NCBI RefSeq assembly: GCF_003568845.1 | Contig: NZ_CP030127.1 | Span: 1,067,501 to 1,131,500 of the forward strand | Source of the DNA: Indioceanicola profundi | Lineage (GTDB): Bacteria; Pseudomonadota; Alphaproteobacteria; Azospirillales; Azospirillaceae | DNA length: 64,000 bases | Direction of reading: 5' to 3' | Part shown: positions 32,882-51,800 of the stretch, in pieces | Position numbering within the stretch: the first letter of the stretch is position 1 | Layout of the letters: each line of letters opens with the position of its first letter | Program-made: the position numbers and the translations under genes | Notes under the pieces: model-generated | What the model saw: only the letters and a program-made list of their open reading frames with translations | Database searches by the model: none | What the model was told of the DNA's origin: nothing

Positions 32882-32929
32882 CGAGCATCTCTTATCGGCA
32901 TGTTTCTCCGGCAGCATCCTTACACACGT

Positions 32930-33175: not shown

Positions 33176-35338
33176 TTAGAGGCCGCTTTCCCTGATCAGC
33201 ACGCCGACCGCAATCCGCCAGAGGCGTGCGGCGATGCTTTCCCGCTCGCCGGAGATCAGGAGCCGGCCCCGCACGGCACGCATCGGCAACTCCTGGTCCG
33301 GCAAGGGCGAAAGGCGGACCCGGTAGACCGCATGGTCCGGAACCAACGTTCCGTCGGACAGGCTGCGGACACCGACCCCGCCCCCATGGATGGAGGCGAG
33401 CGGCGCCAGATCGAGGCTGGCCGCCGCCGTGTCCGCCAGCAGGTCGAGCCGCAGTCGTGCCGGCGGGATATCGGGGTCCTCCGGAATGAACCTGGCTTCG
33501 GCGCCGGGAGAGATGCGGGCGTGATCCTCCTCGGCGATGAAGCCTTCTACTCGCCGCGCGGTGTCATCGACCAGCAGCATAAGGGGCTCGCCCGCCGGAA
33601 CCCAGGCGCCGGGCTTCAGCCCCTCCTCCATCTCGGCGATCCGGCCGGCGAAGGGACTGCGGATGGTGAGCTCCTCCTGCTCTGCCAGCAGGCTGTCCAG
33701 ATTGGCGCTTTCCTGCTGGAGCTGCTGCCGCGCCACGATATTGCGCTGGGCCAGGGTGAGCCGGGTCGTCTGGCCGGACACCTGGGCCCGCAGGCTGGCT
33801 ACTTTTCCCTGTGTGTCCACGATGCGCCATTCAAGGTCGGGCGAGGCGAGCCGGGCCACGACGGCGTCCGCATCCACCCGGTCCCCTTCCCTGACCGCCA
33901 GTTCCGTCACCCTGGCCGGCGCCGGGGCGTAGAGCGTGGCCTGGGCTGCCGGCTGGACCAGCGCGGGGGCGGCCACCTGTGTGCGCCAGGGCACGAACAG
34001 TCCCGCCAGGGCCAACGCGCCGGCCGCGAAAGTCACCGCGGTACGGCGGTTGAGGCGCAGGTCGCCGCGCCGTCCCGCCCAGCTCTTCAACTCCGTCACG
34101 ACAGGTCTCAGGATGAACCACCAGATTTCAACAGCGAACAGGAAAAGCCCCAGCAGCTTGAAGAACATGTGATAGACGAGCAGGGCGATGCCGAGGAACA
34201 GGAACAGACGATAAACCCAGGTGCCCACGGCATAGAGGATCAGCCTGCGCCGCCGCCCGTCCGGCATCAGTTCCGGCGGCGGATCGCCGAAGCCGAAAAG
34301 CGCCTCCCGGATGCGCCAGCGGGCAAGCGCGAAGGACCGCTCCTGCAGGTTCGGCACGTCCCACAGGTCGGACAGCAGCATATAGCCGTCGAACCGCATG
34401 AAGGGATTCAGGTTGACGGCCAGGGTCAGCAGCCAGGTGCTGGTCGCCATCACGAAGGCGGCGCTGCGCAACGGGCCGTCCGGCAGGAAGCTCCAGACCA
34501 GGGTTGCCGCCGCGGCCAGCGACAGCTCGGCCGCCATCCCCGCCACGCCGATCGCCAGGCGCTGCCGACGGGAGCGGAGCTTCCACGCATCCGTCGTGTC
34601 GGTGTAGAGGACGGGCCAGAGCACCATGAAAGCCACGCCCATGGTCGGGACCTTGCAGCCGAACCGCTTGGCCGTCAGCCCGTGGCCCAACTCATGGGCA
34701 AGTTTGGAAAGCAGCAATACGGCCCCAATGGTCAGCGCGCCCTCCGGGGTGAAGAGATAGGGCAGGCTGTGCAGGAACTGGTCCCACTGCCGGGCGACCA
34801 GATGGAGGCCCAGCGCCGCGGCAGCCAGCACAGCCAATAGGAACCAGCGGCTGAACAGCCATTCGGCATGGGGCAGCAGCCGGGCCAGGGCGCGGTCGGG
34901 GCGCACCAGCGGCAGCCGGATGAAAAGGTAATTCTTCAACAGCCACATGGCGGGCGACAGCCGCCGGGCCCGCGCCTGCTCCAGAAGCGTCCTGGTCCGC
35001 GCCTCACCGGTCAGCCGCACCAGATTGCCGTGGAGGAGGAACTGGGCGAACCGCTCCACATCCTTGGCCTGGGGCTTCAGCGGCGTCTGCGCCGCCACCG
35101 CCGCTGCAATCGTCTGCGGCGTGCCGAGCGCCCAGCGCTGGAGCATCTCCATCTCCAGCCAACCGATCCGGAAGAAACGGTTTGCGGCCGGGTCGTGAAG
35201 GGTCCAGGTCGGCCCGCCATCGGCATTGGCCGGACCGGGGATCAGCTCCAGATCGTCGCGCAGGGGCGGAAGACGTGCCTGCCCCACGCCGGCCGCTCCC
35301 GCAGCCGCCGAAGGCTCCACGCTCAGAGCGCCAGCCAT
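33176..35338 (-). CDS. M50-type membrane metalloprotease fused to HlyD adaptor domain (export cassette)
   Basis: 720 residues. Residues about 30-115 resemble a PqqD-like winged helix. Residues 130-410 are a multi-pass membrane domain of the site-2-protease (M50) type with HELGHG (215-220) as zinc site and NPFMRFDGY (311-319) as the second conserved motif. A further helix (about 434-450) leads into a periplasmic HlyD-like part with barrel-sandwich hybrid (YAPAPARVTELAVREGDRVDADAVVARL) and a coiled coil (about 505-560). It ends the operon of the giant surface protein, overlapping the GAF-HlyD gene by 16 bp. Probable roles are export energising or gating, or processing of the exported protein; neither is proven. 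Remnant B of an IS follows directly after its stop. Confidence 0.88.
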   Translation of the reverse strand: MAGALSVEPSAAAGAAGVGQARLPPLRDDLELIPGPANADGGPTWTLHDPAANRFFRIGWLEMEMLQRWALGTPQTIAAAVAAQTPLKPQAKDVERFAQFLLHGNLVRLTGEARTRTLLEQARARRLSPAMWLLKNYLFIRLPLVRPDRALARLLPHAEWLFSRWFLLAVLAAAALGLHLVARQWDQFLHSLPYLFTPEGALTIGAVLLLSKLAHELGHGLTAKRFGCKVPTMGVAFMVLWPVLYTDTTDAWKLRSRRQRLAIGVAGMAAELSLAAAATLVWSFLPDGPLRSAAFVMATSTWLLTLAVNLNPFMRFDGYMLLSDLWDVPNLQERSFALARWRIREALFGFGDPPPELMPDGRRRRLILYAVGTWVYRLFLFLGIALLVYHMFFKLLGLFLFAVEIWWFILRPVVTELKSWAGRRGDLRLNRRTAVTFAAGALALAGLFVPWRTQVAAPALVQPAAQATLYAPAPARVTELAVREGDRVDADAVVARLASPDLEWRIVDTQGKVASLRAQVSGQTTRLTLAQRNIVARQQLQQESANLDSLLAEQEELTIRSPFAGRIAEMEEGLKPGAWVPAGEPLMLLVDDTARRVEGFIAEEDHARISPGAEARFIPEDPDIPPARLRLDLLADTAAASLDLAPLASIHGGGVGVRSLSDGTLVPDHAVYRVRLSPLPDQELPMRAVRGRLLISGERESIAARLWRIAVGVLIRESGL

Positions 35339-36663
35339 TGCCGCACCGTCGCGAAGGGCCGCCGGAACAGGAAGCGGGCCAGCGGGACGCGGTCGCCATA
35401 GACCTTGGCGGTTCCCTTCAGACCGATACGGGGACGCGCCTCCGCCGACGCGAACACGGCCTTCATCCTGTAAGCCAGCGTGCCGTCAGGCCGCGCCGTC
35501 GCCCGGAAGGCCACGCTGTCCAGCACGGCATCGACCGGACGCTCCGGCGCCGTGTTCAGGAAGAACAGCACCTCCGCGCCCGGCTCGAAGCCGATCGCGT
35601 CGCCGACTGGAAGGTGAATGTCGAGACGCACCGCCGCAGGATCGGCCAGCAGCATGATGCGCTCCCCGACGGCGACCGGCCGGCCCAGCCATTCATTGGC
35701 ATCGTCAAACACGGCGATGCCGTCATGGGCCGCGCGGATCTCCGTCCGGCCGAGCAGGTCCTCCAGATAGGACAGCTCCGCCACCTGCTGCTCCAGGCGG
35801 CCCTGGAGCGCCACCAAGCTGGCCTTGACCTCCGGATCATAGACGGCCTGCTGCACGGCGGACCGGTATTCGGCTTCCGCCACGTCGCGGGCGCGCCGCG
35901 CGATCTCCACCCGGCTGCGCAGACGGGTCTGGTCCAGCACCAGCAGCAGGTCGCCCTTGCGCACCTGAGCGTTCGGCTGAACCACCACCCGCTCCACCAC
36001 ACCCTCGAAGGGGGAGCGGACAAGGGTCGGGTCGCTCGGAGTCACCTCCGCCGGGGCGAGCACGGATTGCCGAACCGGCATCACCATGAGCAGGGCCAGG
36101 GCGGCCGCCGCACCCAGCCAGACCAAGCGGGTCCGGCGGGCAGGCCAGATGCTGCGCCTCTTGTGGCGGAAGCGGTCGAGGGCATGGCCATAGGCCTCGC
36201 CCAGATAGGTGAAGATATGCTGATCGAAGCTGGACCAGGCTTCCGGCCGGGACAGCAGCAGCACGCCCAGCAGTTCCCCCCCGGGTCCCGGCAGCGGAAC
36301 CCACAGGAGCTGGGCGGGCAGATGGTCGGTCCAGTCCCGCGCCGTTTCGGCATCCACATCCGCAGCCGTGACCACGCGGATGTCCCTGCCCGCTGGCTGT
36401 CCGGCCAGCCGGGCGGCCAGCCCGGTCAGCCACGCGGCGAAGGGTCCGTCGCGGTCGGGCACGGCAAGCCCGGAGATGGCGGCGATGCGCCCCCGCAGCG
36501 GACCCGGCTGCCAGAGCGCCGCCTGGGCGTAGGCGACCAGCGCATGGGTCTCGTTCACGATAGCGAAGCCCAGCTCCTCCGCCGTTTCGGCCCGCCGTGC
36601 CCGCTGCTCCAGCTGCAGCAGCGTCGTCATGCGCAGCAGCTGGCGGTTCATGCCGTCGTTCAT
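35323..36663 (-). CDS. GAF-domain HlyD family adaptor (export cassette)
   Basis: 446 residues. Residues 1-165 form a cytoplasmic GAF-like domain (TAEELGFAIVNETHALVAYAQAALW...LLWVPLPGPGGELLGVLLLSRPEAWSSFD). A single transmembrane helix spans about 180-196. The periplasmic HlyD part follows, with a lipoyl-like half-motif (LVRSPFEGVVERVVVQPNAQVRKGDLLLVLD), a coiled coil (245-300) and a beta barrel. The GAF domain could sense a ligand and control export. It is 16 bp downstream of the HlyD gene and overlaps the M50-HlyD gene, so translation is coupled. Confidence 0.87.
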   Translation of the reverse strand: MNDGMNRQLLRMTTLLQLEQRARRAETAEELGFAIVNETHALVAYAQAALWQPGPLRGRIAAISGLAVPDRDGPFAAWLTGLAARLAGQPAGRDIRVVTAADVDAETARDWTDHLPAQLLWVPLPGPGGELLGVLLLSRPEAWSSFDQHIFTYLGEAYGHALDRFRHKRRSIWPARRTRLVWLGAAAALALLMVMPVRQSVLAPAEVTPSDPTLVRSPFEGVVERVVVQPNAQVRKGDLLLVLDQTRLRSRVEIARRARDVAEAEYRSAVQQAVYDPEVKASLVALQGRLEQQVAELSYLEDLLGRTEIRAAHDGIAVFDDANEWLGRPVAVGERIMLLADPAAVRLDIHLPVGDAIGFEPGAEVLFFLNTAPERPVDAVLDSVAFRATARPDGTLAYRMKAVFASAEARPRIGLKGTAKVYGDRVPLARFLFRRPFATVRQWLAL

Positions 36664-36679
36664 GGGGCTGGTACCCGGT

Positions 36680-37492
36680 TCATGGTGCCTGCGGCGGCGC
36701 TTCGGCCATGGCGGGGTCCAGCAGGGCCCGCCCGCTCATCCCCGCCATCAGCTCCGGATGGTCGCCGGCAATCTCGCCATAGACGCGGATGGATTGGCTG
36801 ACCGGGTCGACGCGGCCCGACAGGCGGGCGATGCGGGCGGGGTACAGCTTCCCCGTTTCCTCCAGCTCGACGCGGAACGCGGTGCCGGGCTGGACGCGGG
36901 CGATCCAGCGCGACGGCACGATCATTTCGACCTCCAGCTCACGGTCGTTGAGGATTTCGACAAGCGGCTCCCCTTCCGCCACGAACTGGTAGCGCTTGGC
37001 CAACACGCCGGAAACACGCCCGCCGAAGGGCGCGCGCAATACGCAGCGCTGGACCATCAGGTCCATATAGGCCAGCTCCGACTCCGCCTGCGCCAGCTCC
37101 GCCGCCGCCACATCCACGTCCAGCAGACCGATGGAACGCAGGCGGTTCAGCTCCACCTTCGTTTCATGCACCCGCTGCAGCTTGTCGCGGGTCGCCCGGA
37201 TCTGATCCAGCCGGGTCCGGTTCAGGGCGCAGTCGATGACGGCGAGGATATCGCCCTTCTCGAACCTCTCCCCGTCCCGCAACGGCAGCTCGGCAAGCTT
37301 GCCGGCGATCTCGCTGGACAGCACGGTGCTCTGGCGCGGGCTCAACTGCGCCCGTATCTCCGGCCCGATGGCGGAAAGCGTCGTCTCGGCCCGGCCCGTG
37401 CCGGTTCCGGCCGGGAGCAGCGCGGCGGCGAGAACCAAGCCTGAAAGGACCGAGCGGGCGGAGAAACGGATGAGGGAACCGGGCACATGCAT
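36680..37492 (-). CDS. HlyD/RND-type periplasmic adaptor (export cassette)
   Basis: 270 residues with a signal peptide (VLSGLVLAAALLPAGTGTGRAE) and a compact adaptor domain: biotinyl-lipoyl half (VLSSEIAGKLAELPLRDGERFEKGDILAVIDC), hairpin, second half (LRAPFGGRVSGVLAKRYQFVAEGEPLVEI) and beta barrel. It is shorter than usual HlyD proteins and resembles the efflux-pump adaptor class. The start at 37492 begins the signal peptide. An AAGGAGG lies about 20 bp upstream of it, an unusually long spacing, so the start is not certain. It is 52 bp downstream of the TolC-like gene. Confidence 0.85.
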   Translation of the reverse strand: MHVPGSLIRFSARSVLSGLVLAAALLPAGTGTGRAETTLSAIGPEIRAQLSPRQSTVLSSEIAGKLAELPLRDGERFEKGDILAVIDCALNRTRLDQIRATRDKLQRVHETKVELNRLRSIGLLDVDVAAAELAQAESELAYMDLMVQRCVLRAPFGGRVSGVLAKRYQFVAEGEPLVEILNDRELEVEMIVPSRWIARVQPGTAFRVELEETGKLYPARIARLSGRVDPVSQSIRVYGEIAGDHPELMAGMSGRALLDPAMAEAPPQAP

Positions 37493-37544
37493 GATCGAAA
37501 CGGCCGCGCAGGGCCCTCCTTGACGTTCGGTCGCCGGCGGGTGC

Positions 37545-39143
37545 TTACCCGCCCAACGAAACTTCCATGGCGGGACCGGCAGTGGCAGGCTCCTCGACTT
37601 CCACGGCCGGCACGGGTACCTCCGGTAGGGTGCCGTCGCGCCAGGCGCTGTTGACCTGCCGAAGCACGGCCGCGATGGAGTCCACATCCGTGCTCTCCAC
37701 CGCATCCGGCAGCGGGTCCAGACCCAGCGACGCGAAGATGTTGCCGAATGCGATCTGCACCTCGGCGAAGCTGCGGTCCCGCTGAAGCTGGGCGGAAATG
37801 GACTGAACCGACCGGCGGATGCGGTCCATCACGCCTTCCGTGTCGGCGGAGGCGGCATTGGACACCTGTTCGAAGATGCGCCGCTCCACATCGTTCAGCT
37901 CAGCCGCCTGGCGGTACTGCTCCAGCGCCTGCTGATACTGGGCATAGGCGATGTTCACCTGGGTAATGACGGCGATGGAGAGCGCCATCTGGCGCGTTTC
38001 CGCCACGCTGATCTGGGCCTTCGCCAAGTCGATGGCGCGCGGCATGGACAGCAGGTTCACCAGATTGTAGCTGACCCGGACACCCGCATCGGCCCAGTAA
38101 TTGTGAACCAGGAACCGGTTGGCGTCGGCGTTCAGGGAGGCGACCAGATTGACGCCGGGAAGCAGACGCAGCTTCGCCTTGCGCACCTCGTCGGCGCCGA
38201 TGCGGAGCTGATAATCCTCCTCCCGCAGCTCGGGACGATGGGTCAGCGCCACCATTTCCAGCCGTTCCATGTCGACCTTGAACTCGGGCGGTTCGACCTG
38301 GGCCTCGTCCGGCATCACCAGCGTGAAGGACGTTCCCGGCGCCACATTCATCAGGGAGGCGAGCCGGGCCTTGGAGGTGATCACGTCCGACCGTAGCGCG
38401 CGGAGCTGGCGCACCACCTCGAGCAGAGCCTTCTGGTATTCCAGCGCCTGAAGCGGCGCGCCCACACGTGACCGCTCGATCTCGCGGGCTTGGTTCACGG
38501 CCTCCTCGGCGTCGGCCAGCACGGGCTCGATGAGGGACAGCAGCCGCTCACCTGTGGCGGCCTGCCAGAAGGCGCTGCGGATTTCCTGCACCACATTGTT
38601 GACGACACGCCGCCGGCGTTCCTGGGCGATCATCACCCGGTCGGCCTGCTGCTTGGCTTGGTAGTAGCTGAGGCCGAAATCCAGGATGTTCCAGCTAAAC
38701 TGCAGGCTGGCGGTCTTCTGCTCCTTCTCGCTGGAGGTGGAGGGCTCGAGCGACTGCCGGCCGGAGAGGATGGAGTAGCTGGAGGAGGCCAGCGTGTTGG
38801 AGCGGACCATGTAACCGGCATCCGCCGCCAGCCGCGGCAGCATGTCGGTTTCCGTCAGGTCCAGCTGGGCGGTCTGGAGCGCCTGCTCCATCAGAGCCAG
38901 CCGCTGATCGAGATTGTACTTGAGGCCGCGGGCGATGGCCTCATACAGGGTGACCGGACCGTCCAGCGGCTCCTGCCCGTCGAACAGCATGTCGCGGATC
39001 AGGAAGGCCCGCGCGGCCTGCTCCTCGGGCGTCACCGGTTCCGGACGGACGGAACAGGCCGATGTCAACAGAACACCTGCCAAGGCGATGGCGACCTTGG
39101 AGACCGATGGCGGAAAACGGCGGGAACGGAGAGCGGAAATCAT
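37545..39143 (-). CDS. TolC-like outer membrane factor lipoprotein (export cassette)
   Basis: 532 residues with a lipoprotein signal (VAIALAGVLLTSACS, lipobox Cys30). Two repeats of the outer-membrane-efflux fold follow (LQFSWNILDFGLSYYQAKQQADRV...; RVSYNLVNLLSMPRAIDLAKAQISVAETRQMALSIAVITQVNIAYAQY), with long alpha-helical coiled regions. It would provide the outer-membrane tunnel for the giant surface protein encoded 59 bp upstream. A Pro/Glu-rich tail ends the protein. It belongs to the TolC/CusC group and is placed in this cassette by operon structure. Confidence 0.9.
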   Translation of the reverse strand: MISALRSRRFPPSVSKVAIALAGVLLTSACSVRPEPVTPEEQAARAFLIRDMLFDGQEPLDGPVTLYEAIARGLKYNLDQRLALMEQALQTAQLDLTETDMLPRLAADAGYMVRSNTLASSSYSILSGRQSLEPSTSSEKEQKTASLQFSWNILDFGLSYYQAKQQADRVMIAQERRRRVVNNVVQEIRSAFWQAATGERLLSLIEPVLADAEEAVNQAREIERSRVGAPLQALEYQKALLEVVRQLRALRSDVITSKARLASLMNVAPGTSFTLVMPDEAQVEPPEFKVDMERLEMVALTHRPELREEDYQLRIGADEVRKAKLRLLPGVNLVASLNADANRFLVHNYWADAGVRVSYNLVNLLSMPRAIDLAKAQISVAETRQMALSIAVITQVNIAYAQYQQALEQYRQAAELNDVERRIFEQVSNAASADTEGVMDRIRRSVQSISAQLQRDRSFAEVQIAFGNIFASLGLDPLPDAVESTDVDSIAAVLRQVNSAWRDGTLPEVPVPAVEVEEPATAGPAMEVSLGG

Positions 39144-40799
39144 ACCAGACCCTGACCCTTGAGCGCTGCGACGGTAGTCGTCGGATGGTTAAGAAAGTGC
39201 GGTCATGCCGCCCGGTCGGATGGCACGTCATCGCCATCGGAATCCGGCGGCTGGATGCCCGCAAGGCTGTCGAGAAGAGCACGCGCCTCGGCGAACATGC
39301 CGGCCAGCCCGGCCCCGCGGAGCTGCGCCGAGAAGGTTGGCTTGCCGGACGCATCCCCGCGAACCGCACCATCGTCCAGCAGGCCGAGTTCGGCCGCGGC
39401 CCGGATCGCCTGATCGTCCGTGCCGAGCGATGCATCCCGCTCGGGCGGCGGAGCACCATCGGCTGGAACGTCATCGGCCGGAGCCTCCGTGGCAGGCGGC
39501 TCTCCGCCCGCCGGCGCTTCAGGCGCGGGCGCCTGTTCCGGCTGCGGGACGCTCCGCCCCGTCTGGACGTCGACGCCCTTTCCGACCGTGACGCGGAAGG
39601 ATGCGGTCGCGGAATTGCCGGCTGCGTCGCGGGCGGTGACCGCGATTTCCAGCGTCCCCTCCGCTCCCTCCGGCGGCGTGCCGGTGAAGGTGCGGGAGCT
39701 TGGATCGAAGCTCAGCCAGTCTGGCAGCGGCTCGCCATTGGCCTGACGGGCCTCGAACTGCAGCCGTTCTTCCGGATTGGTGTGCCGAAAGACGTTCGCC
39801 GGCACCTGGAACGACTTGCTGCTGTTCGTTTCGGCCACCTGATCGCTGACCGAGCCGGCAATGAACAATGTGACATTCCGGTCGGCCATGACGCCGCCGG
39901 CCCCGCCCACGATGGACCCGGTCAGACCGCCGGAGCCATTGGACGGAGGCATGAGGATACCGCCGCCCGGACCGTCGCCCCCATTGCCGCTGGTCGGAGG
40001 CGTGATCGGCGGATTGGTGATGAGCGGCGGCTGGACCGGCGGCGGAGGCGGCACGGTGATGACCGGCGGAGGCGGCGGTGGGGGCGGCGGTGCCGGAGGC
40101 TGGATCGGGGCAGGCACGTCGTTGATGCTGATGGTCAGCGGCACGCGGGCCGTTGCACCGGCCTGGTCGCGACCGATGACCACGATGGACAGTATGCCAT
40201 CCGCCCCGTCCGGCGGCGTGCCGGTCAGGGTAAGGGTCGCTGGATCGAAGCTAAGCCAGGCCGGCAGAGGGCTGCCGTCGGCCAACTGCACCAGGAATGT
40301 GATGGTGTCGCCCTGGTCGATGTCCGCGAACAGCCCGGTCGGCAGCGTGACTGTCAGCGGCGCCCCTTCGTTACCGGTCAGCGACGGCAGGCTGCCGGTC
40401 GCGGTCGGGGCATCGTTGACCGGGCGCACGGTCAAAGGCACGTTCGCCACATCGGTCAGCGGCCCGCCGGTCCCGGTGTTGCCGAGATCGTTCGCCCGCA
40501 CCGACAGGGCGGCCGGCCCGTTATAATCGGCCGGCGGAGTCCAGCTCAGCCCGGCCAGCGCAGCATTCAGCGCGCCGACGGTCCCGCGTAGGGTGATCGC
40601 ACCGCTGCCATTCGCACCGCCCACGATGCTGACGCCCGCGGGCAGGACAATGTCCAGACGGCCCAGCTCGACGGAAAGGGCCAATTCCATCTGCCCGCCG
40701 CCCACATCGATGTCGGAAATGCGGATCGCCGCATCGCCGGTGAAGGCGAGGACGCCGTCCTCATCCACCGCCGGGTTCGACGGAAGGGTCAGGACCGGC

Positions 40800-43300
40800 G
40801 CATCGTTGACGGGCACGACCATGATGCTGGTCAGGACGGTTCCCGTGGCAGCGCCGGCTCCGGCAGCATCGGCGTCCGTTATCTCCACCGTCAGGCCGCG
40901 CGTGCTGCTGAGCGCGGTCGGATGGTCGGAGGTGGAGGCGAAGGTGACGCTGCGCAGCACCTCCTGGTACTGGGCGAGCGTCGCCGTGCCGGTCAGGGTC
41001 AGCGTGCCGGTCGCGGCGTCATAGGCCACCCCGATCCCGTGATTGCCGACCGCGCCCAGCACATCGCCGGTGGTCAGGCCGGAGTCGAGGATGACCCGTG
41101 CGCCGCTGATCCAGGTGTCGTCCGGGTCGGCGAGGGTGAGCTGGGCGAGAACCGGCACCGCGGCCCCATTCTCCCTGTAGGTTGCCGATGCGCCAGGATC
41201 GATGACCGGCGCATCGGCAAGGGCCGTGATCCGCCCGGCGATGAGTGCCGAAGCGGTGCCGGCGCCAGCCAGGTCGGAGTTGGCATCGCTGACCCGGATG
41301 ACGAAGTCGCGGCCGGTGCGGCTGCCGCCCTGGGTCGGGTCCGCGCTGGCGCTGGCATAGGTGACCGAGCGAAGAACCGACTGGTACTCCGCAACCGTGG
41401 CCCTGCCGGACAGGGTCAGTGCGCCGGTCACGGCATTGTAGGCGACCGAGATGTTGGCCGTGCCGCTGGCCGCCAGCAGGTCCCCGGCGGTGAAGTTCGC
41501 ACCGATCGTGACGGTGGCGCCGGACAGGTGCGTGTCGTCAATGTCCGCGAGGGTCAGCCCGCCATCCAGCACCACGGCCGTTCCATCTTCAACGTACCGG
41601 ACCACGGTCGTGGTCGTGCCGATGACCGGGTTGTCGGTCTGCGGGGTGACAGCGATGGTGCGGCTGGCGCTGCCTATACCGGCGCCGGCCCCGTCGGAGT
41701 TGGCGTCCGTTACGGTGAAGCTGATGCTGCGCGCCGTTGCCGTGGCGTCGGCGGTGGGATCGTCACCGGTATTGGAGAAGGTGACCTGCCGCAACAGCGC
41801 CTGATACTCGGCCAGCGTCGCCGTGCCGGTCAGGGTGAGCGTACCGGTCGCGGCATCGAAGCTGGCGGTAATGCCGGCGGGCGTGGCGACGGACAGGACA
41901 TCCCCCACCGCCCGGCCGCTGTCGATCCGCACGACGGCCCCGCTGATCCGGGTATCGTCGACATCGGCCAGGATAAGCCCGGCGTCGATGATCGCGGCTG
42001 CTCCATTCTCTGTCCAGGCGGCGTTGCCGGCGCTGACGGTGACAGTGGGAACGTCCGTGACAGCAGTGATCCGCACATCACGGGTTGCCGCCGCGCTGGT
42101 CAGCGCGCCGACGCCGTCGGCATTGCCGTCCGTCACCTGGAAGCTGACGGTGCGGGCCGGAGCCGTCCCGTTCACCGTCGGGTCCGCGCTCACAGAGCTG
42201 TAGGTCACGCTGCGGAGGACCGCCTCGTACTGGGCGCGGGTGGCGGTGCCGGTCAGGGTGAGCGTGCCGGTGGCGGCGTCGTAGTTTCCGGTGATGCCGT
42301 TTCCATCCGTGAAGCCCAGTATGTCGCCCGGCCTGAACCCGCCTGTGATCCGGACCACGGCCCCGGTCATGCTGGTATCGTCGCGATCTGCGAGCGACAG
42401 GCCGGGGTCGATGGCTATGCCGGCCGCATCCTCCGTATAGGCTGCCTCCCCTACGCTTGCGGTAAGGATCGGCGTGTCGTTGACGGGGACCACCCGCACC
42501 GTGCTGGCGACTTGGTTGCTGACGGCATTAGCAGCGCCGCCGTCATCGACCTGGACGATGACCGTCCGGTCGGCCGTGACAGGGTTTTCCGAGGTGTTGG
42601 CATAGGTCACCGCCCGTAGCGCAGCCTGCCACTGTGCAAGGGTTGCCGTGCCGCCGGCCGAGCTCAGGGACAGGACGCCGGTGGCAGCGTTGTAGCTGGC
42701 CTGGATGTTCCCGTAGGTCGCCGCATCGATGTTGCCGAAGGACAGTACATCCTGCCCCGGCTGGAAGTTGCCGGTGACAGCGACCGTGGCGCTGGTCAGC
42801 GTCGTGCTGTCGAGGTCGGAGACGGTGATCCCGCCATTCACCACCACCGGGGTCGGAGCGGCATTGTTGCTTTCGGTGAAGGTTACGATGTTGCCGCCGC
42901 CGCCAAGGACCGGAGAGTCATTGGTGGCGACCACCTGAACCGTGCGGGTGGCGATCAGGGAAAGGTTATCCTGCGCCCTCCCGTCATCCGCCTGGAAGCT
43001 GATGGTGCGGTCGCCGGTCGTCGGCGTGTGGGAGCTGTTGGAGTAGGTGACCGCCCGTAGCGCCGCCTGCCATTGGGCCAGCGTGGCCGTATCCCCAGCG
43101 GAAGTCAGGGTCATGATGCCCGTCACGGCATCGTAGGAGGCCTGGATGTTGCCGAACGCGTCGGCATCCGTGTTGGCGAAGGCCAGAATATCCTGGCCGG
43201 CCTGGAAACCGCCGGTGATGGCGACCGTGGCAGCCCGCAGGGTCGCGTTGTCGACATCCGTTACAGTCAGATCCTCGGCAACCGCCACCGGGGTGGAAGC
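40800..43300 (-). repeat. six tandem ~420-bp repeats inside the giant surface-protein gene
   Basis: A recognisable core (plus strand GCCGTGCCGGTCAGGGT...) recurs near 40984, 41401, 41821, 42243, 42645 and 43085, about every 400-440 bp. Each unit encodes about 140 residues with a TGTLTLTGTATLA(E/Q)Y-like strand. Units are similar but not identical. Boundaries are approximate. Confidence 0.65.
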
Positions 43301-46300
43301 GCCGACACCCTCCGTAAACACGGTCGGACCGGCGCCGACCGTCACCACTGGCCGGTCGTTGACGCCGTTGATGGTGATGGTCAACGTGGAGGTCTGCTCA
43401 TCCCCCGCCGTGCCATCGGACAGGCGGTAGGTGAAAATCTCCGTCAGGGTCTGGCCGGGAGCCAGCGCCTGCACCGCTGCATTGCCATTGTCGAGGGCGT
43501 AGCTGTAGCTCCCGTCGCTGTTCACTGTCAGCGTGCCGTAGCTTCCCGCCGCCTGTGTGCCTGTGCCGACAGCAGCGAAAGTACCTCCAGCACCAGCCTG
43601 GATGCCGCTGACGGACAGAGCCCCGCCATTGGATGGCTCGTCCACATCCGTGTCGGCGGGTGCGTCGGTGATCAGGTTGCCGCTGGGGGTACCGGCGGCC
43701 CCATCCTCGTTCACGCTGCCGGTATTGGGCTTGGCAACAGGAGCATCCTCGGCACTGGCGACCATGACCGCCAGGGTACGGACCGTCTGGGCTGGCGCGG
43801 CCGCGCCATCCCTGCTGATAGCAGTGACTGTCAGATTGATCGGCTGCCCGCCATTGTCGCGGACGCTGTTCCAGTCCTGCGGGGACTGCAAGGTCAGGTT
43901 CGCAAGATCGGCTGTGCTCAGCGTGCCGGTGGCCCCGCCCGTCAGCGGCACCTCGACGCCGTTGTTGCGCAGCACCCAACCGGCCGGAATGCCGGAGATG
44001 ACGATCCCCAGAGTCTCATCCGCGCCCAGCGTGTCCGTCTCCCCGACCGTGATGGTGAGCGGGATGGGCTGGTCCTCGGTCCCGTTGGCGGGGCTGGCGG
44101 TCAGCGTGGGCGCATCGGACACGCGGGTGATGGTGATCACGGCTGCGGTCGTGTCGGTTGTGCCCTGGGCCGTCGAACCGGAGCCACCGTTCCGGCCGTC
44201 GTCAACCGTGGCGGTCAGAACGACAGTGCCGCTGTCATCGGCGGCTGCGGCATAGACCAGACTGGCCAGGGCGGCATCGATCTGAGCCTTCGTCCCGGTC
44301 AGCACCAGCGTGGCCGTGCCGTTCCCGGTGAAGCCCGCCCCGCCCGCGTGCGTTCCCGTGCCTGCCGAGCCTGCGACGGACAAGCTGCCCGACGCATCCG
44401 ACCTGCCGGTCATGTCCGCCGCATTGGGAGCGACGGTAAGCGTCACGGTGAAGCTGTCCGTGGCGCTGGCATAGGTCAGGTCTGCCAGATCGGCGATGGT
44501 GATGCGGCCAGCGGCCGTGCCGTCGAACGCCAGCGTGCCATCCTCCGCCAGAGTAGCGGCAGCGGGGCCGGTGATGGCAGGCGCATCGTTGGTGGGCATG
44601 ACGGTGATCGCGACCGTGTCGCTGTCCGTTCTGGCCCCATCTGTCCCGGCATTCCCCAGGTCGGTGGTGGTGACAGTCAGCGCGTCGGGACCGTTGTAGT
44701 CGGCCAGGGCACGGTAGGTGAGCCCGTCCGCCAGCAAGGCATTGATGCTTGCCTGACTGCCCGTCAGCACGATGGTGCCGGTCCCGACACCGTCAATGTC
44801 GACGCCATCCAGCGTGCCGATCGTCAGCGCGCCCTTCCCGACCGAGAGGGTGACCCGGATGTCCGCCCCGCCCGCATCCGCATCGGCCACCGAGATGGCA
44901 TTTCCGTTGGCGGCGGAGAGGACCAGATCCGCGTCCTCATCCACTGTCTGGGCGGCGGGCACCGAATTGATCGGGGCGTCGTTGGCCGCGGTGATCGTGA
45001 TGGAACCGGTAAGTGTGGTTTCCAGCGGATTGGCGCCGCCGGCATTCCCGCCGGCCTGTGCATTCCCGCCCTCGCCGGCATTCAGCCCGTCCGTCAGCGT
45101 AACGGTGAAACCGCGGGTACCCGCGGGCGGAGTGTCGGAGGTGTTCTGGAAACGGATGGCCTGGAGCAGCCCATCCACCTCGGCGCGGGTCGTGTCCGCA
45201 TCCAGCGTGATGACAAGCTCCGCCCCGTTCGCCCCGCCGGTTACGGCCACGCCTGCCGGCAGCACGCCACCGGTCAGCGCTGCCGCGTCCACGGTAAGCT
45301 GGTCGGAAGCCAGGGTCCCGGCGATGGCGACGGTGATCCGCCCCTCGCCGAACACGGCCGGGTCGAGGATCGCGCTTCCGCCCGTCCGGGTCGTGGTGAG
45401 ATCGATGTCGTCCACGGCGGAGGTGAGAACCAGCTTCTGCGGCGCGGTGCCGACGCCTGTCGCACCGCTCTCCGCCACCGTTCCGGTGAAGGCGGATGCA
45501 CCGGTCCCGAAGGACGGGGCGTCGTTGCGCGCCGCCACCTGGAAGGTGATGCTGTCCGTGTCGCTCAACGCCCCCGGCGCGCCGGTATTGCCATTGTCGT
45601 TGGTCGTGATGGTGATGCTGTCGGTACCGGTGAAATTCGCATTGCCGCGATAGGTTACGCTGGCCAGCAACGCCTGCAGGTTCGCCAGCGTGCCGGTCAC
45701 GGTCACCGTGCCGTCGGCCACACCGTCGCCTGCATCAAAGTCGACGGCGGCTCGGCTGTCCGAATCGCCCAGGGTCAGCACGCCGTTTCCGGCCGAAAGG
45801 GTGAGGGTCAGCTTGCCGTTCGCCGTCTCGGTCACATCCACATCGGCAATGTTGAAGCGGTTGGCGCCGCTGAAGGTGAAATCCGTATCTTCCACGATGC
45901 CGGTGAGCGTGCCCGGAACGGTATTCACGGGCGCGTCGTTGGCGGGGACGATGTTGGCGGACAGGGTCAGGCTGTTGGCACTGAACTGGTCGTTGTTGCC
46001 GAGGTTGCGGTCGCCGTCGGTGGTGACGCCGTCATCCGTGTTCGTATCCGCATCGGAACTGGTCCTGTCCCACAGCTTCAGGGTCAGCGTGGCGCCCGGA
46101 TCGCCATTGGCATTCGCCGCCGGGGCGAAGCGGATGCGGTCGGTCGGTTGCAGCAGAAGGGCGCTGTCGGCAGACACTCCCGCGATATCGGTCCAGGTGG
46201 AGCCGCCATCGGTGGAGACCTGCCATACGCCGTTGGCGTTGGCGACCGCACCGGTGACAGCAAGCCCCAGGCCGTCGGTGGGCGTTCCGATGCCGCCAGC

Positions 46301-46928
46301 GCGGTTATCGACGTCGCTGGCATTGCCGCCCAGGGCGGCGATCAGGCTGGCCACCGTTTCCCCAGCATTGGCGTAAGCGCCGACGCCGTTCCATTCCGGC
46401 GTACTGCGCGCCGGGAGCGTAGCGCCGCCGGTCAGAACCGGGGCATCGTTCTCCACCGTCACCAGGATCGTGTTCGTGAAAAGGGCTGTCGCGGTCTGGG
46501 TCGTTACGCTCTCCGCCAGCCCGTTGCGCACATCGATGGCGACGGCGCGGACGGCGTCAACGCCGCCTGCCGGATCATGGCTGTCGTTGACATAAGCGAT
46601 CTGGCGGACCAGCGCCTGTACCGCGGCCGGGGTCGCATTTCCGTTCAGGGCGACCTGCAGCGGGGTCCCGGCATCCGTGCCGCCGGACGCCGTGCCGATC
46701 AGCACCGCACTCCCGGCGCCCGCCCCGTCGGCGTCGTACCAGACCTCCGTTCCGTTGCGGACCTCGATCCAGTTGCTGCCGGCCGTACCGTCGCCAATGA
46801 CGGTGAGCCGGTCGCCGGCGCTGCCGTTGGCGGTGAAGCGGGCCGTGACCTGTCCGCCGCCGAAGGGAATATTGTCGTTGTCGGTGATGGTGACGCCCGC
46901 ATCGTCGAACAGCTTCACCGGCTCGGCA

Positions 46929-46936
46929 TTCTCGAA
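46929..46936. repeat. 8-bp target-site duplication, left copy (TTCTCGAA)
   Basis: Identical to 48852-48859 on the other side of the element. Eight bp is the duplication length known for the IS1595 family. Confidence 0.92.
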
Positions 46937-46961
46937 AAGGCTTATCCCGTTCCTTCCGGTG
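46937..46961 (+). repeat. left terminal inverted repeat of the IS1595-family element
   Basis: Begins AAGGCTTATCCCGTTCC and continues TTCCGGTG. It matches the reverse complement of 48827-48851 with one mismatch at position 18 (T/G). Confidence 0.92.
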
Positions 46962-47032
46962 CCCACCATCCCTAGTCGGATGACCTCGGCAGGCTGATTG
47001 ACTCTCCGCGCCGGGAATTGCAGGCTTTGGCT

Positions 47033-47974
47033 ATGCCAGCCCGTTGGAACAGCACGAACCGGCCGCCATCGCTCCAATCCTTCAAGGACCGGTTCCCGGA
47101 TGACGACGCTTGCGCCGCCTATCTGGAGCAGCGCCGCTGGCCTGATGGCTTCATCTGCCCGGAGTGCGCCTCCGTTTGCGGGTGGAAGCTCCAGACCAAG
47201 CGATGGACCTGGGAATGCCGAGATTGCGGGCAGCAAACTTCCGTGACGGCCGGAACCTTCATGCACGGCACCAAGGTGCCGCTGCGCACATGGTTTCTGG
47301 CGGCACACCTGATGGCGACGCACTCGAACGGGATGTCCGCCCTCCAGCTACAGGCAAAGCTGGATCTCGGCTCCTATAAGACGGCCTGGCTGCTGCTGCA
47401 CAAGCTGCGCCGGGCCATGATCGATCCTGACCGCACGATGTTGTCCGGCGATGTCGAGGTCGATGAGACGACACTGCCCTTCCGCACGCTCGACGACCCC
47501 ATCGGCGGCGGCCAGGGCCGGAGCCCCATCGGCAAGATCGCCGTCGTCGGTGCTGTCGAACTGGAGGCGGGCAACAAGCCCGGCCGCATCAGGCTGAAGG
47601 TCATCCCGGACTATCGAGGCGAGACCTTGAAAGGCTTCATTCAAGACCACATCGAGGGCGGTAGCCACATCTGGACCGATGACAACAAGAGCTACTACGG
47701 GCTGAACGGCTTCGATCACACGCCGCGCGTCATCGGCAAGATGGCTGCACACATCATCATGCCGTGGATTCATCGCGTCTTCTCGAACCTGAAACGCTGG
47801 GGTATCGGCGTCTTCCATGGCTTCCGGCGGAAGTATCTGGACGCCTATCTGAACGAGTTCGTGTTTCGCTGGAACCGGCGTCACAGCTACCGCTCGGCCT
47901 TCGAGCGACTGATTGGGATTGGCGTGGCGGTTGGACCAGCGACCTACGACGACATCAGGGCCAGAGTGGCTTGA
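47033..47974 (+). CDS. IS1595 family transposase
   Basis: 313 residues from the ATG at 47033. The N-terminus is a zinc ribbon (CPECASVCGW...WECRDCGQQTSVTAGT: two Cys pairs), then a linker helix (WFLAAHLMATHSNGMSALQLQAKLDLGSYKTAWLLLHKLR). The ISXO2-like catalytic domain follows, with acidic residues in GDVEVDETTLP, IWTDDNKSYYGL and, towards the end, the YLNEFVFRWNRRHSYRSAFERL motif. Length and order are those of intact family members; no frameshift is visible. It runs opposite to the host gene and to the cargo genes, ending 1 bp from the toxin stop. Confidence 0.95.
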   Translation: MPARWNSTNRPPSLQSFKDRFPDDDACAAYLEQRRWPDGFICPECASVCGWKLQTKRWTWECRDCGQQTSVTAGTFMHGTKVPLRTWFLAAHLMATHSNGMSALQLQAKLDLGSYKTAWLLLHKLRRAMIDPDRTMLSGDVEVDETTLPFRTLDDPIGGGQGRSPIGKIAVVGAVELEAGNKPGRIRLKVIPDYRGETLKGFIQDHIEGGSHIWTDDNKSYYGLNGFDHTPRVIGKMAAHIIMPWIHRVFSNLKRWGIGVFHGFRRKYLDAYLNEFVFRWNRRHSYRSAFERLIGIGVAVGPATYDDIRARVA

Positions 47975-47975
47975 G

Positions 47976-48482
47976 CTAGAACATGCCAGATGGACCCGAC
48001 GGACCACTATCCTCATCTCGTTGAGAGCGTGAGGGGCGACGTGCCATTCCCGGTACATCAGGCCCGAGCTTGATGATAAGTTCCGGGCGTTTTGCCAATT
48101 CCATCAGCGTGTTCTCTACGAGCGTATGAAACTTCAGCGACGCCGTGTGAACGATACCCTTGTCCGGGTTCTTCAAACGAGGGAAGAACCCGTTGTTCAC
48201 GGGAATGAAAGCAACTCGCCGCGCGTCCATGACGAACCCCTTCTGGTTCATCTTCGCGGCCAATGCGGGATCGACGGGGATTACGCCGAGAGGAAGCCGC
48301 ACACCAGGTTCCCATTTGGTGGTCGTCGTGTAGAGAGACATGACCGTTAAGTGGGCGTTGCCGTCGATCCGCCGGATGTCGGCCACATATCCAACATGCT
48401 CATCGGGTCCCGGCCGAAGGGGTTCTTCAGAGTAGGGGAACTGACACCAGACGAATTGACGAGGCTCAAAGGGCGGCTGCAT
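47976..48482 (-). CDS. PemK/MazF-like toxin, IS cargo
   Basis: 168 residues. The N-terminal strand pattern (PRQFVWCQFPYSEEPLRPGPDEHVGYVADI) fits PemK/MazF-type endoribonuclease toxins, as does its position after a ribbon-helix-helix gene. The rest (FVMDARRVAFIPVNNGFFPRL...GIVHTASLKFHTLVENTLMEL) is less typical and longer than MazF (about 110 residues). Its ATG overlaps the antitoxin stop by one base (TGATG), so translation is coupled. If functional it would cut RNA and arrest growth when the antitoxin is lost. The toxin assignment is a family-level judgement from pattern and operon layout. Confidence 0.6.
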   Translation of the reverse strand: MQPPFEPRQFVWCQFPYSEEPLRPGPDEHVGYVADIRRIDGNAHLTVMSLYTTTTKWEPGVRLPLGVIPVDPALAAKMNQKGFVMDARRVAFIPVNNGFFPRLKNPDKGIVHTASLKFHTLVENTLMELAKRPELIIKLGPDVPGMARRPSRSQRDEDSGPSGPSGMF

Positions 48483-48751
48483 CAGTAGCCGCCAGCATCG
48501 AGCACCGCATGGAAGATCGCGTCACGGCGCTGACGTTCTTCTTCGGTCTCGCCCGGCAATGGAACAGCAACGGCCCGGCGGATGTCGGGCGGCGCGATAA
48601 CTTCGATTGAAGGCTCATCGGGTCGCATCTGAAGGTCTTTCCGCATGAGCGTTTCTACGTAATTCGTGAGGCTGCGGTTATCGTGCGTTGCCTTGTTGCG
48701 GGCCGCACTCAACACGCTGGGATCAAGCCGCATGGTGACTGACTGACGCAT
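48482..48751 (-). CDS. ribbon-helix-helix antitoxin, IS cargo
   Basis: 89 residues from the ATG at 48751, with GGAGG 6 bp upstream. The N-terminus is a CopG/Arc-like ribbon-helix-helix (MRQSVTMRLDPSVLSAARNKATHDNRSLTNYVETLMRKDL). The acidic C-terminus (PGETEEERQRRDAIFHAVLDAGGY) is the likely toxin-binding tail. Promoter-proximal to the toxin, as in most type II pairs, so it probably represses the operon. An upstream extension to 48790 is not supported. Confidence 0.75.
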   Translation of the reverse strand: MRQSVTMRLDPSVLSAARNKATHDNRSLTNYVETLMRKDLQMRPDEPSIEVIAPPDIRRAVAVPLPGETEEERQRRDAIFHAVLDAGGY

Positions 48752-48802
48752 GGAACACCTCCGTGTTGGCGTAACCCAATGTATGTACAATGCAATCGAA
48801 TG

Positions 48803-51800
48803 TCAAGCGATTCTATGGGTTGGGTTCACCGGACGGAACGGGATAAGCCTTTTCTCGAAATAATCGGCCCGGCTCAGGGTCGGCGGAGCGCCGGTGCGGA
48901 TGGGCTCGTTCACCGGGATGATGGCGACGCTGGTTTGCGCCGCCATAGACCGGGCGGCCCCGCTGCCCTGGGCGGCGCTGGTGCTGCCGGCTGCATCGTT
49001 CACCGTCAGCCGGATCGACACCGGCCCGACACTGACGCCGTTCACATTCTCGTTGGTGTTGCGGTAGGTGACCGACTGCGCGACCAGACTTGCGGTGGCC
49101 TGGGTCACCGCTGCCGTACCGGCAAAGGTAATCTGCAACCGCCCAGCGGTGCCGGTGTCGATGGTGCCGATCTGTGGGTCGTCGGCGCTGCTGGCCGTGC
49201 CGTTGGACAGCCGCAGGATCGAACCGTCGGCATAGATGGTACCGGGCTCCGTGGCGCTGCCGCTGAAGCCGAACACATCCTCGCCATTGGCGCCGGACGA
49301 GCGTTCGAAGGTCAGGCGGACGCCGCGGTAGTCGTTCGGGCCGCCCGACGCCGTGCCCAGGTCCGGGTCGCCGATCTGGACATTGGCATCCAGCACGATG
49401 GCAGGGCCGTCCTCCGTATAGGCCGGGGCGGTCGGGCCGAAATCCTGGATTACGGGCGTGTCGTTGTTGGCGTTGACGGTGACCTGGATGGTCTCCGCCT
49501 GGGTGCTGCCGCCGGCGATGTTGTCATCCAGGGTGAGCGAAAGAGTCCGGGTGGCGGTCGGCCGGTCGGAGCTGTTGGCGTAGGTCAACGCCTCCATCAC
49601 GTCCGCGACGCGGTCCTGGGTAGCACTTGCATTGAAGGTGACGACGAAGTCCGTCCCGTTTCCGCCTGTTGCAGCGCCGACCTGGACCCAGGCGCTACCG
49701 TCATGGACATGCACTGAGCCGTCGCCATTGCGCAGGAATACCTGGCCCAGGCTGCCCGTGCCGGGTAGCTCGGCGCCGGAGGGCAGCGACACCACATCCT
49801 GACCAGCGATCAGGCCGGAGACGGTCAGCGTGGCCCCGCTCAGTATGGAAGTATCCTTGTCCGTGATGACCATACTGCCGTCGCTGATCAGCGGCTGGGC
49901 CTCGGTGTTGACGGTATTCTCCTCGAAGGTCACGTCCGCCTCGGCGGACAGGCGAGGCTTGTCGTTGACCGCCACCAGCGTGATCGTGGATTGCGGGCGG
50001 TTGCTGTCCGCGGCGCCTGTCGTATCGGTGTTGCTTGTACCGGCATCAGTCACCTGGACCTGAACCGTCCGGGGCTGGACCGTCGGGCTGTCCGATTCAT
50101 TGGCATAGGTGATGCCCCGGAGCAGCGCCTGCACATCCGTGAGGGCGTAGACCGCCCCTGTCAGCGGCGTGATTGTGATGGTGGATGAGGTGGCGGTCGT
50201 ATTCACATCCACCGTGAAAGAGCCCACCGTCAATGTGCTGGTTCCAGGGGCCAGCGTCACCCTGGTCCCGCCGATGGTCAGCACCTCGTCCCCTTCGTCG
50301 GCAAGGCCGTCGATGGTGAGGACCAGCTGGGTGAGGTTTGTATTGTCCCGATCGCTGATCACCGCATTGGCGGCGATGGCTACCGGGATGCCGGCAGTAT
50401 TCGCGCCTTCCGTAAAGGTCACGGCTTCATTGACGGCCGGGTTCGCGTCGGTGTTGTCCAGATCCACGACCGGTGCATCGTTGACAGCAGCGACAATCAC
50501 CGTCGCGACCGCCACCGGGCTGCTGGTCAGTGAATTGTTGCCGCCATTTCCCGTCGCATCGTTGCTGCCGGCATCGCGGACCGCCACGCTGAAGGTCCGG
50601 TCGGCGGCCGTGCTGGGCGTGTCGCTGGCGTTGCGGTAGGCGATGCCCTGGAGCAGCGCTTCGAACTGCGCCTTGGTGGCAGTCCCGCCGCCCTGCACAG
50701 TGACGATGATGGTGGGCGCCGTCCCCGGATTCGTCAGCGCGATGGTAAAGGTCGCGCCGCCAACGGTGATCGTCGCGCTCTTGCTTGAGCCCAGCGCGAA
50801 GTCGGTCCCGCCGATGGTCAGGATCTCGGCATTCCCGTCGGCGATGTTGGCCGCGGTGATCGTCAGCCGGCTCAGCTTGGCGCTGTCCGCGTCTGTCAGG
50901 GTGCCGGGACCGAAGGGCTGGACGGCTGTGGCGCCGGTATCCGCCCCCTGCTGCTCGGAGAAGGTGACCGTGCGGTCGATGCCGGACGTGCCGCTACCGT
51001 TCAAATCCACCGCCGGCGCATCGTCGGCGCCGTTGATGGTGATGGTCAGTGTAGCGGCTGCCTCGTCTCCCGCAGTCCCGTCGGAGAGCTGATAAGTGAA
51101 CACATCCGCCAGGCTCTGCCCGGCACGCAAGCCCTGCACGGCGGGAAGGCTGTTGTTCAGCGTATAGGTATAGGTTCCGTCATTGGCGACGTGCAGCGTT
51201 CCATAGTTTCCGTCAATACTGTATCCGCCGCCCGGCACCACGGTAAAGCCGCTGGAGCCGGTCCCGGTGCGGATGCCGATGATGCTGAGCGTGTGGCCTG
51301 GGCCGGAGCCGCCTGCACTGTCGACATCATGGTCGGCTGTAGCATCGGTGATCAGGTTGCCGGTGCTGGTGGTCGTGCCGTCTTCCGTGACGCTGCCGGT
51401 ATTGGGGTTGGCGACCGGCGCATCCTCCGTCGGGCTCACCGTCACCTGGAAGGTGCGGGTGACCTGAAGATCGGCCAGGGTCGGACCGGCATAGTCGATG
51501 TCGCCGGGATTCTCCGCGGCGTCATTCGTGTCGCCGATCAGGCTGCGCGGACGCTCGCCCGAATTGCCACCGTCATTGACGACCAGCGTAACGGTCAGGG
51601 TACCGTTCCAATCGGCCGCGGTCGCCGGGCCGGCGCCGTCCGGATCGGGCAGTCGGATGGTGAGCGCGTTCAGCCGGCTGGTCAGCTCAGCCGCCGTGGC
51701 CCCGGTAATGGTAAGGCTGCTCCCGTTCAGCTCCCCGAGCGTGCCTCCGGCCCCACCCACGGCGGTGATCGTTCCATGGGAAAGGGTGACGGTGACGCTC

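Follow-up and report, generated by a model that had tools for sequence, protein, structure and literature searches.

A four-gene cassette downstream of a giant repeat protein

The region analysed here, called the window below, is a 64,000-nucleotide stretch of the Indioceanicola profundi genome (contig NZ_CP030127.1, abbreviated C2; C2:1067501-1131500; the whole genome comprises 5.37 Mb on four contigs). On its minus strand, at positions 33176-39143, it carries a cassette of four tightly packed genes that follows the gene of a giant repeat protein, in the order giant, TolC-type outer-membrane factor (OEP), RND-type adaptor, GAF-HlyD and M50-HlyD, the reading frames of the last two overlapping. 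The first-pass annotation of the sequence had described these four genes and had remarked that the window contains no ATP-binding cassette (ABC) ATPase. All four genes are present at these positions, and Pfam and NCBIfam agree on the OEP, HlyD and M50 assignments. The absence was borne out by a profile search, in which none of the genome's 62 matches to PF00005 (E <= 0.001) fell into the window, the nearest being located at C2:1140664. In addition, no RND or MFS pump is encoded between the four genes.

The first gene (37545..39143; Pfam OEP, 4.6e-31; all cassette features on the minus strand) encodes a TolC-type outer-membrane factor with a lipoprotein-like start. The second (36680..37492) encodes a soluble RND-type periplasmic adaptor with a signal peptide-like start (TIGR01730, 101.1 bits at a cut-off of 94.9; HlyD_3, 7.1e-18); its open reading frame (ORF) extends to 37705, and the probable start at 37492 was chosen from the hydrophobic N-terminus. 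The third and fourth genes encode GAF-HlyD (35323..36663; 446 aa; HlyD_3, 2.6e-12) and M50-HlyD (33176..35338; 720 aa; Peptidase_M50, 1.3e-9; HlyD_3, 4.5e-14), in which adaptor domains are fused to further modules.

A zinc metalloprotease and a GAF domain are fused to adaptor domains

M50-HlyD consists of an N-terminal domain, about seven transmembrane helices with an M50 zinc protease site, and a C-terminal periplasmic adaptor. Both motifs singled out in the first-pass annotation, HELGHG and NPFMRFDGY, are present. The zinc-binding HELGH motif comprises residues 215-219 (34682..34696), and the second half of the site, NLNPFMRFDGY, residues 309-319 (34382..34414). H215, E216 and H219 as well as N309, P312, D317, G318 and Y319 are identical in 40 of 40 M50-HlyD sequences of the alignment (A3), as is D324. 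PF02163 was matched by all 40, and the protein displays the characteristics of peptidase family M50, i.e., HExxH and NPxxR(F)DG(Y) motifs within a multi-pass protein. An AlphaFold2 model based on the 40 sequences (mean predicted local distance difference test score, pLDDT, 86.0) was subjected to fold comparison, which identified residues ~450-700 as a MacA-like adaptor (Z 17.0, root-mean-square deviation (rmsd) 4.8 Å, 219 residues). The number of hydrophobic helices preceding this adaptor, about seven, was estimated from hydropathy; accordingly, the N-terminus would be cytoplasmic and the adaptor periplasmic.

The N-terminal domain is arranged in the model as beta-beta-beta-alpha-alpha-alpha and is probably PqqD-like, as judged by profile-profile alignment of residues 45-107 (35018..35206): hhalign aligned 61 of 67 columns with PqqD (E 2e-5, probability 77%), six control alignments giving E values of 0.096-0.66. 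A Pfam PqqD match was obtained in a sister-clade M50-HlyD at E 0.008, below the cut-off. A fold search of the PDB with the whole model says nothing on the PqqD fold, as the adaptor domain filled the match list. The best NCBIfam match of the M50 part was daptide_HExxH (NF041824; 160.4 bits, E 6.8e-47, at a curated cut-off of 300), followed by LiaK/YydH with 29.9 bits, and the adaptor part reached 39.8 bits against NHLM_micro_HlyD.

In GAF-HlyD, a GAF domain (residues 4-171) is joined by one transmembrane helix to a MacA-like adaptor (residues 198-425). The AlphaFold2 model from 43 sequences (mean pLDDT 95.5) matched the GAF domain of PtsP (3ci6_A; VIA-align Z 16.5, rmsd 2.6 Å, 148 residues) and, in its adaptor part, MacA (Z 16.9, rmsd 4.3 Å, 224 residues). 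The GAF domain proposed in the first-pass annotation is thus clear in the model and weak by sequence: Pfam reported GAF at E 9e-4, below the cut-off, PF01590 was matched in 11 of the 43 alignment members including that of the window, and a PDB profile search with the region returned just two weak nucleoporin matches. It was also found in a sister clade of M50-HlyD (12 of 22 M50-HlyD matches weaker than 1e-70), in which a 600-670-aa HlyD protein is encoded directly upstream in 12 of 12 cases; all five of these partners scanned matched GAF, the best at 1.6e-15.

The cassette is widespread and conserved

A scan of one genome per species yielded at least 592 pattern matches and at least 579 confirmed relatives of M50-HlyD, and the best 80 of those were analysed as loci. 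Neighbouring genes were found with hidden Markov models built from seven cassettes, and ABC proteins with a model built from eight ABC proteins of the window's genome. In 45 of the 80 loci, the sequence extended 8 kb or more upstream and 5 kb or more downstream. Of the 74 loci with 1.5 kb or more of upstream sequence, 72 had GAF-HlyD immediately before M50-HlyD; the remaining two (L058, L059) have it as well, but overlapping in a long stop-to-stop frame. The full order OEP, adaptor, GAF-HlyD, M50-HlyD was seen in 56 of the 66 loci that reach 5 kb or further upstream, and among 61 loci with 6 kb or more, 52 have an ORF of at least 900 aa next to the cassette. Judged by record titles, and among the matches listed, the relatives belong to Alpha-, Beta-, Gamma- and Zetaproteobacteria, Nitrospirota and others, and the closest named relatives of the window's M50-HlyD include Skermanella, Azospirillum, Niveispirillum and Microvirga. 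The four-gene cassette is therefore both widespread and conserved.

Cassettes also occur on plasmids. Matches to M50-HlyD were found in 75 plasmid records, eight of which were examined; seven showed the cassette order (Niveispirillum, Azospirillum, Magnetospirillum, Burkholderia, Kosakonia, Citrobacter and E. coli; the GAF-HlyD of the Citrobacter plasmid is annotated in two pieces). Azospirillum brasilense also has relatives of the cassette, and its giant is annotated as two neighbouring genes. Among 5426 complete E. coli genomes, 24 carry M50-HlyD (22 with at least 80% of the gene), 21 of the 25 places being plasmid-borne, and in E. coli strain H6 the five genes lie together.

In the window's genome, a second M50-HlyD with 52% identity to the first is encoded at C2:1175122-1177281 and forms, at C2 1175 kb, a second trio of adaptor, GAF-HlyD and M50-HlyD with no adjoining OEP. 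The same genome encodes a second giant protein of 4312 aa (C2 ~674-687 kb), which matches DUF4347 twice and has an OEP of its own. As the second trio and the second giant with its OEP sit apart, the trio and the giant-OEP pair are separable. Beside the second giant lies an ordinary MFP-RND operon (L165, L166; C2 ~668-687 kb), with the adaptor trio ~0.5 Mb away.

To identify further components, the 30 largest clusters of neighbouring genes of at least 70 aa were judged by one example sequence each, and no further export component was recognised among them. Nor did these 30 most recurrent clusters contain anything identifiable as an RND or MFS pump. An RND pump as the motor of the system was considered in view of the operon beside the second giant and was rejected, as none could be identified in these 30 clusters. 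A cluster of 571-aa ORFs from 30 loci was judged by eye to consist of antisense frames.

The matches of M50-HlyD to peptide-maturation proteases (daptide_HExxH, LiaK/YydH) and to NHLM_micro_HlyD raise the alternative that the machine exports a small processed peptide and not the giant, and a precursor peptide could have escaped clustering with its 70-aa lower limit. However, the large ORFs beside the cassette and the co-occurrence with DUF4347 described below argue for large cargo, and we regard a peptide as a highly improbable substrate.

Type I exporters are not, as a rule, linked to the cassette

ABC ORFs were present in 12 of the 80 loci, 17 in total compared to 16.5 domains expected from their density in the window's genome. 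Classification of all 17 revealed one type I exporter, of the HlyB type (L087, Serratia marcescens), which is encoded on the opposite strand with its own HlyD. The others were ABC-F, nitrate/taurine/phosphonate-like, PtuA-like, PQQ-ABC, tungstate-like, YbbA/LolD-like, urea or branched-chain amino acid, sugar and oligopeptide proteins. No ABC protein was detected in the 12 sister-clade loci, nor in the flanks shown of the seven ordered plasmid cassettes. The possibility that a linked ABC exporter had simply been overlooked in the first-pass annotation was therefore rejected, since the window has no PF00005 match and the related loci are at background level. The first-pass annotation had named a linked ABC exporter in all homologous loci as grounds for refuting its reading, and the loci surveyed do not, as a rule, have one.

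Alternatively, an ABC exporter encoded elsewhere, of type I or another kind, may move the giant across the inner membrane, leaving to the cassette the adaptors, the channel and a protease for retention or release. Whole-genome searches of 14 cassette genomes for three type I families (LssB, PrtD, HlyB), in which at most 41 or 51 first-look candidates were scored per genome so that absences are not absolute, gave a match over the cut-off in 11. Over 398 genomes, in surveys scoring two or, in one case, up to eight first-look candidates per genome, an LssB-type exporter was present in 40 of the 78 with a strong M50-HlyD. The window's own genome encodes one PrtD-type exporter with a HlyD-like neighbour (772.9 bits; C2:12146-13768), 1.09 Mb from the cassette on the same contig, and unlinked type I genes are described for Legionella in part of PMC7730722. 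All of this speaks for such an exporter.

On the other hand, co-occurrence of M50-HlyD with LssB was weak (phi 0.18), and the flanks of the plasmid cassettes examined, which stem from three proteobacterial classes, contain no exporter. Moreover, three of the 14 genomes (G016, G082, G400) were without a type I match over the cut-off. G016 was not counted as exporter-free because two of its proteins have type I families as their best match with scores below the cut-off (571.7 and 492.4 bits). In G082 (100% complete, on a single contig) and in G400 (the metagenome-assembled chromosome of a Nitrospira), no exporter exceeded the LssB, PrtD or HlyB cut-off, and a repeat search with LssB and PrtD, scoring more candidates (72 of 93 and 90 of 93 for G082, all for G400), again found none; HlyB types seen in the survey score more than 500 bits on LssB. 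Among HlyB-like proteins, the best one in G082 proved to be a cyanophycin-associated ABC protein (1390.7 bits), and the cassette of this genome follows a 4385-aa giant with a leader and a C-terminal motif of the kind described below. Both genomes hold other ABC exporters with MsbA-like scores, a further point against export free of ABC proteins. Given these and the PrtD-type exporter of the window's genome, help in trans is possible; altogether, we consider export by an ABC protein encoded elsewhere unlikely.

Many giant proteins share an N-terminal leader and a C-terminal motif

The giant gene of the window is represented by two ORFs on the minus strand, one of 4530 aa (48803..62395) with a leader, DUF4347 and cadherin-like repeats, and one of 2706 aa (39203..46936) with Pfam matches to He_PIG and cadherin-like repeats. 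Between them lies a 1915-bp IS1595-type insertion (46937..48851; DDE_Tnp_IS1595, 5.7e-32), which contains the last codons of the 4530-aa ORF. Its terminal repeats are alike at 26 of 30 positions and it has an intact 8-bp direct repeat; we therefore read the two ORFs as the N- and C-terminal parts of one gene. The giant repeat protein noted at first pass is thus present upstream of the cassette, but apparently as a single gene split by the insertion. Pfam and NCBIfam scans of both parts matched cadherin-like, He_PIG, VCBS, tandem-95 and DUF4347 families and weak others, and found no RTX match in either.

The leader of the window's giant, LEPRVMFDAA, occupies residues 34-43 (62267..62296). Among adjacent giants whose ORF start lies inside the locus, 14 of 19 carry an LExRx(M/L)F leader, compared to nine of 1358 other ORFs. 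We read the five misses as C-terminal pieces (L043, L119 and the window) or wrong-frame ORFs (L045, L110); the true giant of L045 carries the variant leader LEPRVVYDA. In 24 ORFs chosen by the pattern, which therefore give no rate, the leader lies 14-69 residues from the probable start.

These 24 leaders were also used for a hydropathy comparison. The most hydrophobic 12-residue stretch had a median Kyte-Doolittle value of 1.41 and remained below 2.14 in all 24, the range of 2.14-2.67 being that of nine of ten control N-termini from OEPs and adaptors (the tenth, the L041 adaptor, lacks a hydrophobic core and reached 1.31). By sequence, then, the LExR-FDA leader, which many giants have in the form LExR-(M/L)-F-D-(A/G), does not look like a Sec signal. 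It might nevertheless be an unusual one that directs the giant through SecYEG into the periplasm, from where the cassette would export it via TolC while the M50 protease clears the leftover leader. M50 proteases classically clear membrane-embedded remnants, a basic region precedes the leader, a mildly hydrophobic Ala/Val stretch follows it, and two of the 24 leaders (window, 2.03; L058, 2.12) come near the control signal peptides. But with all 24 maxima below those of nine of the ten controls, and with giants of many beta domains expected to fold in the periplasm, we think a Sec route quite improbable.

Many giants also share a C-terminal motif, (K/R/S)x(A/G/P/S/T)(L/F/I)xxQ(L/F/I/V/M), which begins 21-46 residues before the C-terminus and takes the form KPTFSAQL in the window (39320..39343; 46 residues before the end). 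The motif was defined after viewing the C-termini, so that the counts are not independent of its definition, and they omit L045, L058, L065 and L110 (wrong-frame or reversed ORFs). In its strict form it occurred in 22 of 37 giants, compared to 106 of 7400 shuffles and eight of 838 internal pieces. After removal of near-duplicates, 18 of 31 distinct giants and seven of 868 internal pieces had the strict form, and 23 of 31 and 22 of 868, respectively, a relaxed one. On plasmid pMSR-1 of Magnetospirillum gryphiswaldense (L044:6502-7980), a 492-aa ELWxxDGT-repeat protein with a variant of the motif at its end takes the place of the giant; it is a possible small natural model cargo.

In many giants the leader is followed by DUF4347. 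The DUF4347 domain of the window's giant (61004..61495; Pfam, 1.4e-66 for the protein) has a His-Gly pair and a Cys residue. In an alignment of 23 domains (A6), the His was conserved in 21 and the Gly and the Cys in all 23, forming a pattern of His-Gly and Tyr-Gly-Cys. We take this HG...C pattern to be like that of caspase-type (clan CD) peptidases, so that an autoprotease may lie at the N-terminus of the giants. A PDB profile search with DUF4347 returned five de novo TIM barrels over a short stretch, 9qpe_G, titled 'DUF4347 domain-containing protein' (E 4.1e-4), and two weak others. According to part of one report, a DUF4347 protein ranks among the most strongly up-regulated proteins of Burkholderia thailandensis in stationary phase (PMC12322963).

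Co-occurrence of the cassette with DUF4347 giants, suggested as a check at first pass, was pronounced over the 398 genomes: a strong M50-HlyD was present in 78 and DUF4347 in 92, with 70 shared (phi 0.78), whereas LapB/LssB-type exporters and DUF4347 gave a phi of 0.20. However, DUF4347 as an obligatory mark of the cargo had to be abandoned. It is not required, as the G082 giant has the leader in a genome with no DUF4347 match, and it is not exclusive, as 22 of the 92 DUF4347 genomes are without a strong M50-HlyD (four of the 22 have a weak one).

A proposed export route

Taken together, we propose, with a probability of roughly 0.6, that the four genes encode a TolC-dependent machine dedicated to the export of giant surface proteins with leaders, and that this machine operates with no ABC (type I) exporter dedicated to it. 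The inner-membrane part would be the protease-adaptor M50-HlyD, in the place of the exporter. The first-pass annotation had already suggested this protein as a substitute for the exporter or as an enzyme that processes the cargo, and had read the GAF domain as a sign of ligand-controlled export. To this are now added the rule that no ABC exporter is linked and the tie to DUF4347, while replacement of the exporter, cutting of the cargo and control by GAF are retained as predictions.

PqqD-like domains bind the leader peptides of ribosomally synthesized and post-translationally modified peptides (RiPPs), and that of M50-HlyD would bind the LExR leader. At the inner membrane, the M50 unit would take up the leader and probably cut the cargo at or near it. 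A TolC trimer offers six adaptor places, which the three adaptors might share as a mixed ring with two of each. GAF-HlyD would sense a small molecule or a partner protein and open the route, and the C-terminal motif of the cargo would engage the machine or hold the protein at the outer membrane. Candidates for the drive across the inner membrane are the proton motive force, folding of the cargo outside the cell, or a general translocase. More tentatively, and with some doubt on our side, the cassette could define a separate class of Gram-negative secretion, in which LExR-FDA giants are threaded from the cytoplasm to the surface via TolC and a three-adaptor mixed ring, with PqqD-M50-HlyD as gate and processing enzyme, GAF-HlyD as switch and no nucleotide-driven transporter.

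Apart from the exporters encoded elsewhere, several observations weigh against the proposed machine. Ten of the 66 loci do not show the canonical order: OEP and adaptor are found elsewhere in the locus in four (L058, L061, L074, L076), and one or both were not found in the other six. Azospirillum sp. B510 has no other cassette gene within 15 kb of M50-HlyD, although a giant with a leader is encoded ~10 kb away. The giant gene is interrupted in the I. profundi strain itself, and in its second giant the leader pattern occurs solely at ORF residue 284 and the C-terminal motif is absent. In the sister clade, a DUF4347 giant of 4161 aa (L180) gave no leader match, and in eight of 31 distinct giants not even the relaxed C-terminal motif is present. 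The two leaders close to signal peptides in hydrophobicity, the 22 DUF4347 genomes without a strong M50-HlyD and the PqqD assignment, resting on a probability of 77% and an E value of 0.008, belong here as well. Finally, no cleavage site was identified in the cargo, and part of PMC10868602 describes a Vibrio giant of the LEPR-XLL kind that has RTX repeats.

Relation to known systems

Type I secretion systems (HlyB-HlyD-TolC; LapB-LapC-LapE) resemble the cassette in their TolC-family channel, HlyD-type adaptors and giant repeat neighbour, and also in a cargo with no clear Sec signal and, in many cases, a conserved C-terminal motif. The cassette differs by the absence of the ABC permease/ATPase that defines the family, by three adaptors instead of one, two of them fused to GAF and M50, and by cargo that is in many cases conserved at the N-terminus too, the giant of the window lacking an RTX match. 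MacAB-TolC, AcrAB-TolC and EmrAB-TolC share the adaptor fold, to which both GAF-HlyD and M50-HlyD conform in their matches to MacA; in contrast to these tripartite pumps, no RND or MFS pump was recognised among the 30 neighbour clusters judged and ABC ATPases are at background frequency. The maturation proteases of daptides and epipeptides (YydH/LiaK) have the M50 core in common with M50-HlyD, which, however, scores below the daptide cut-off, is fused to a probable PqqD-like domain and a periplasmic adaptor, and has a giant as its neighbour. In the LapA/LapG/LapD retention system, too, the export locus of a giant surface protein includes a protease. LapG is a periplasmic cysteine protease, whereas that of the cassette is a membrane M50 zinc enzyme fused to an adaptor.

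According to a review of type I and tripartite systems, known TolC-dependent machines depend on an inner-membrane transporter of the ABC, RND or MFS kind that is energised, and the searched part of this review does not mention GAF, a metalloprotease or an M50 peptidase (PMC8277102). Parts of three further reports describe giants with type I genes (PMC7730722), a giant adhesin with a full type I locus (PMC9430717) and HlyD proteins in RiPP loci (PMC8939145). A search of open-licence full texts in PMC, preprints not included, for the cassette genes, LEPR-XLL, DUF4347 and M50 with HlyD retrieved no description of the system. The cassette recurs across phyla with a protease-adaptor apparently in the transporter's place, and plasmids carry it together with its cargo. 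If the proposed machine is real, it would constitute a new way to export very large bacterial proteins and provide a machine for many giant adhesin-like genes. Direct tests of this export model could start from the leader, the C-terminal motif and the invariant zinc site.

Other genes at the cassette loci

Within the IS1595-type insertion, the transposase gene (47018-47974, plus strand) is followed by two passenger genes on the minus strand (47976-48482 and 48482-48790), one of which has a weak DUF6364 match. Just downstream of M50-HlyD, at 32558-32917, an Imm53 immunity-like protein is encoded (E 3.9e-32).

Recurrent neighbour clusters of the related loci comprised a mixed ABC cluster (10 loci), a further family (17 loci) and phage-tail-collar proteins (6 loci). 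The single example scanned from the 17-locus family near cassettes, L139:14113-15486, is a histidine kinase, and the recurrence of this family suggests two-component control. Phage-tail-collar ('tail fiber') proteins lie beside cassettes or giants in L042, L045, L046 and L137 (Pfam Collar in L137) and are possible surface partners.

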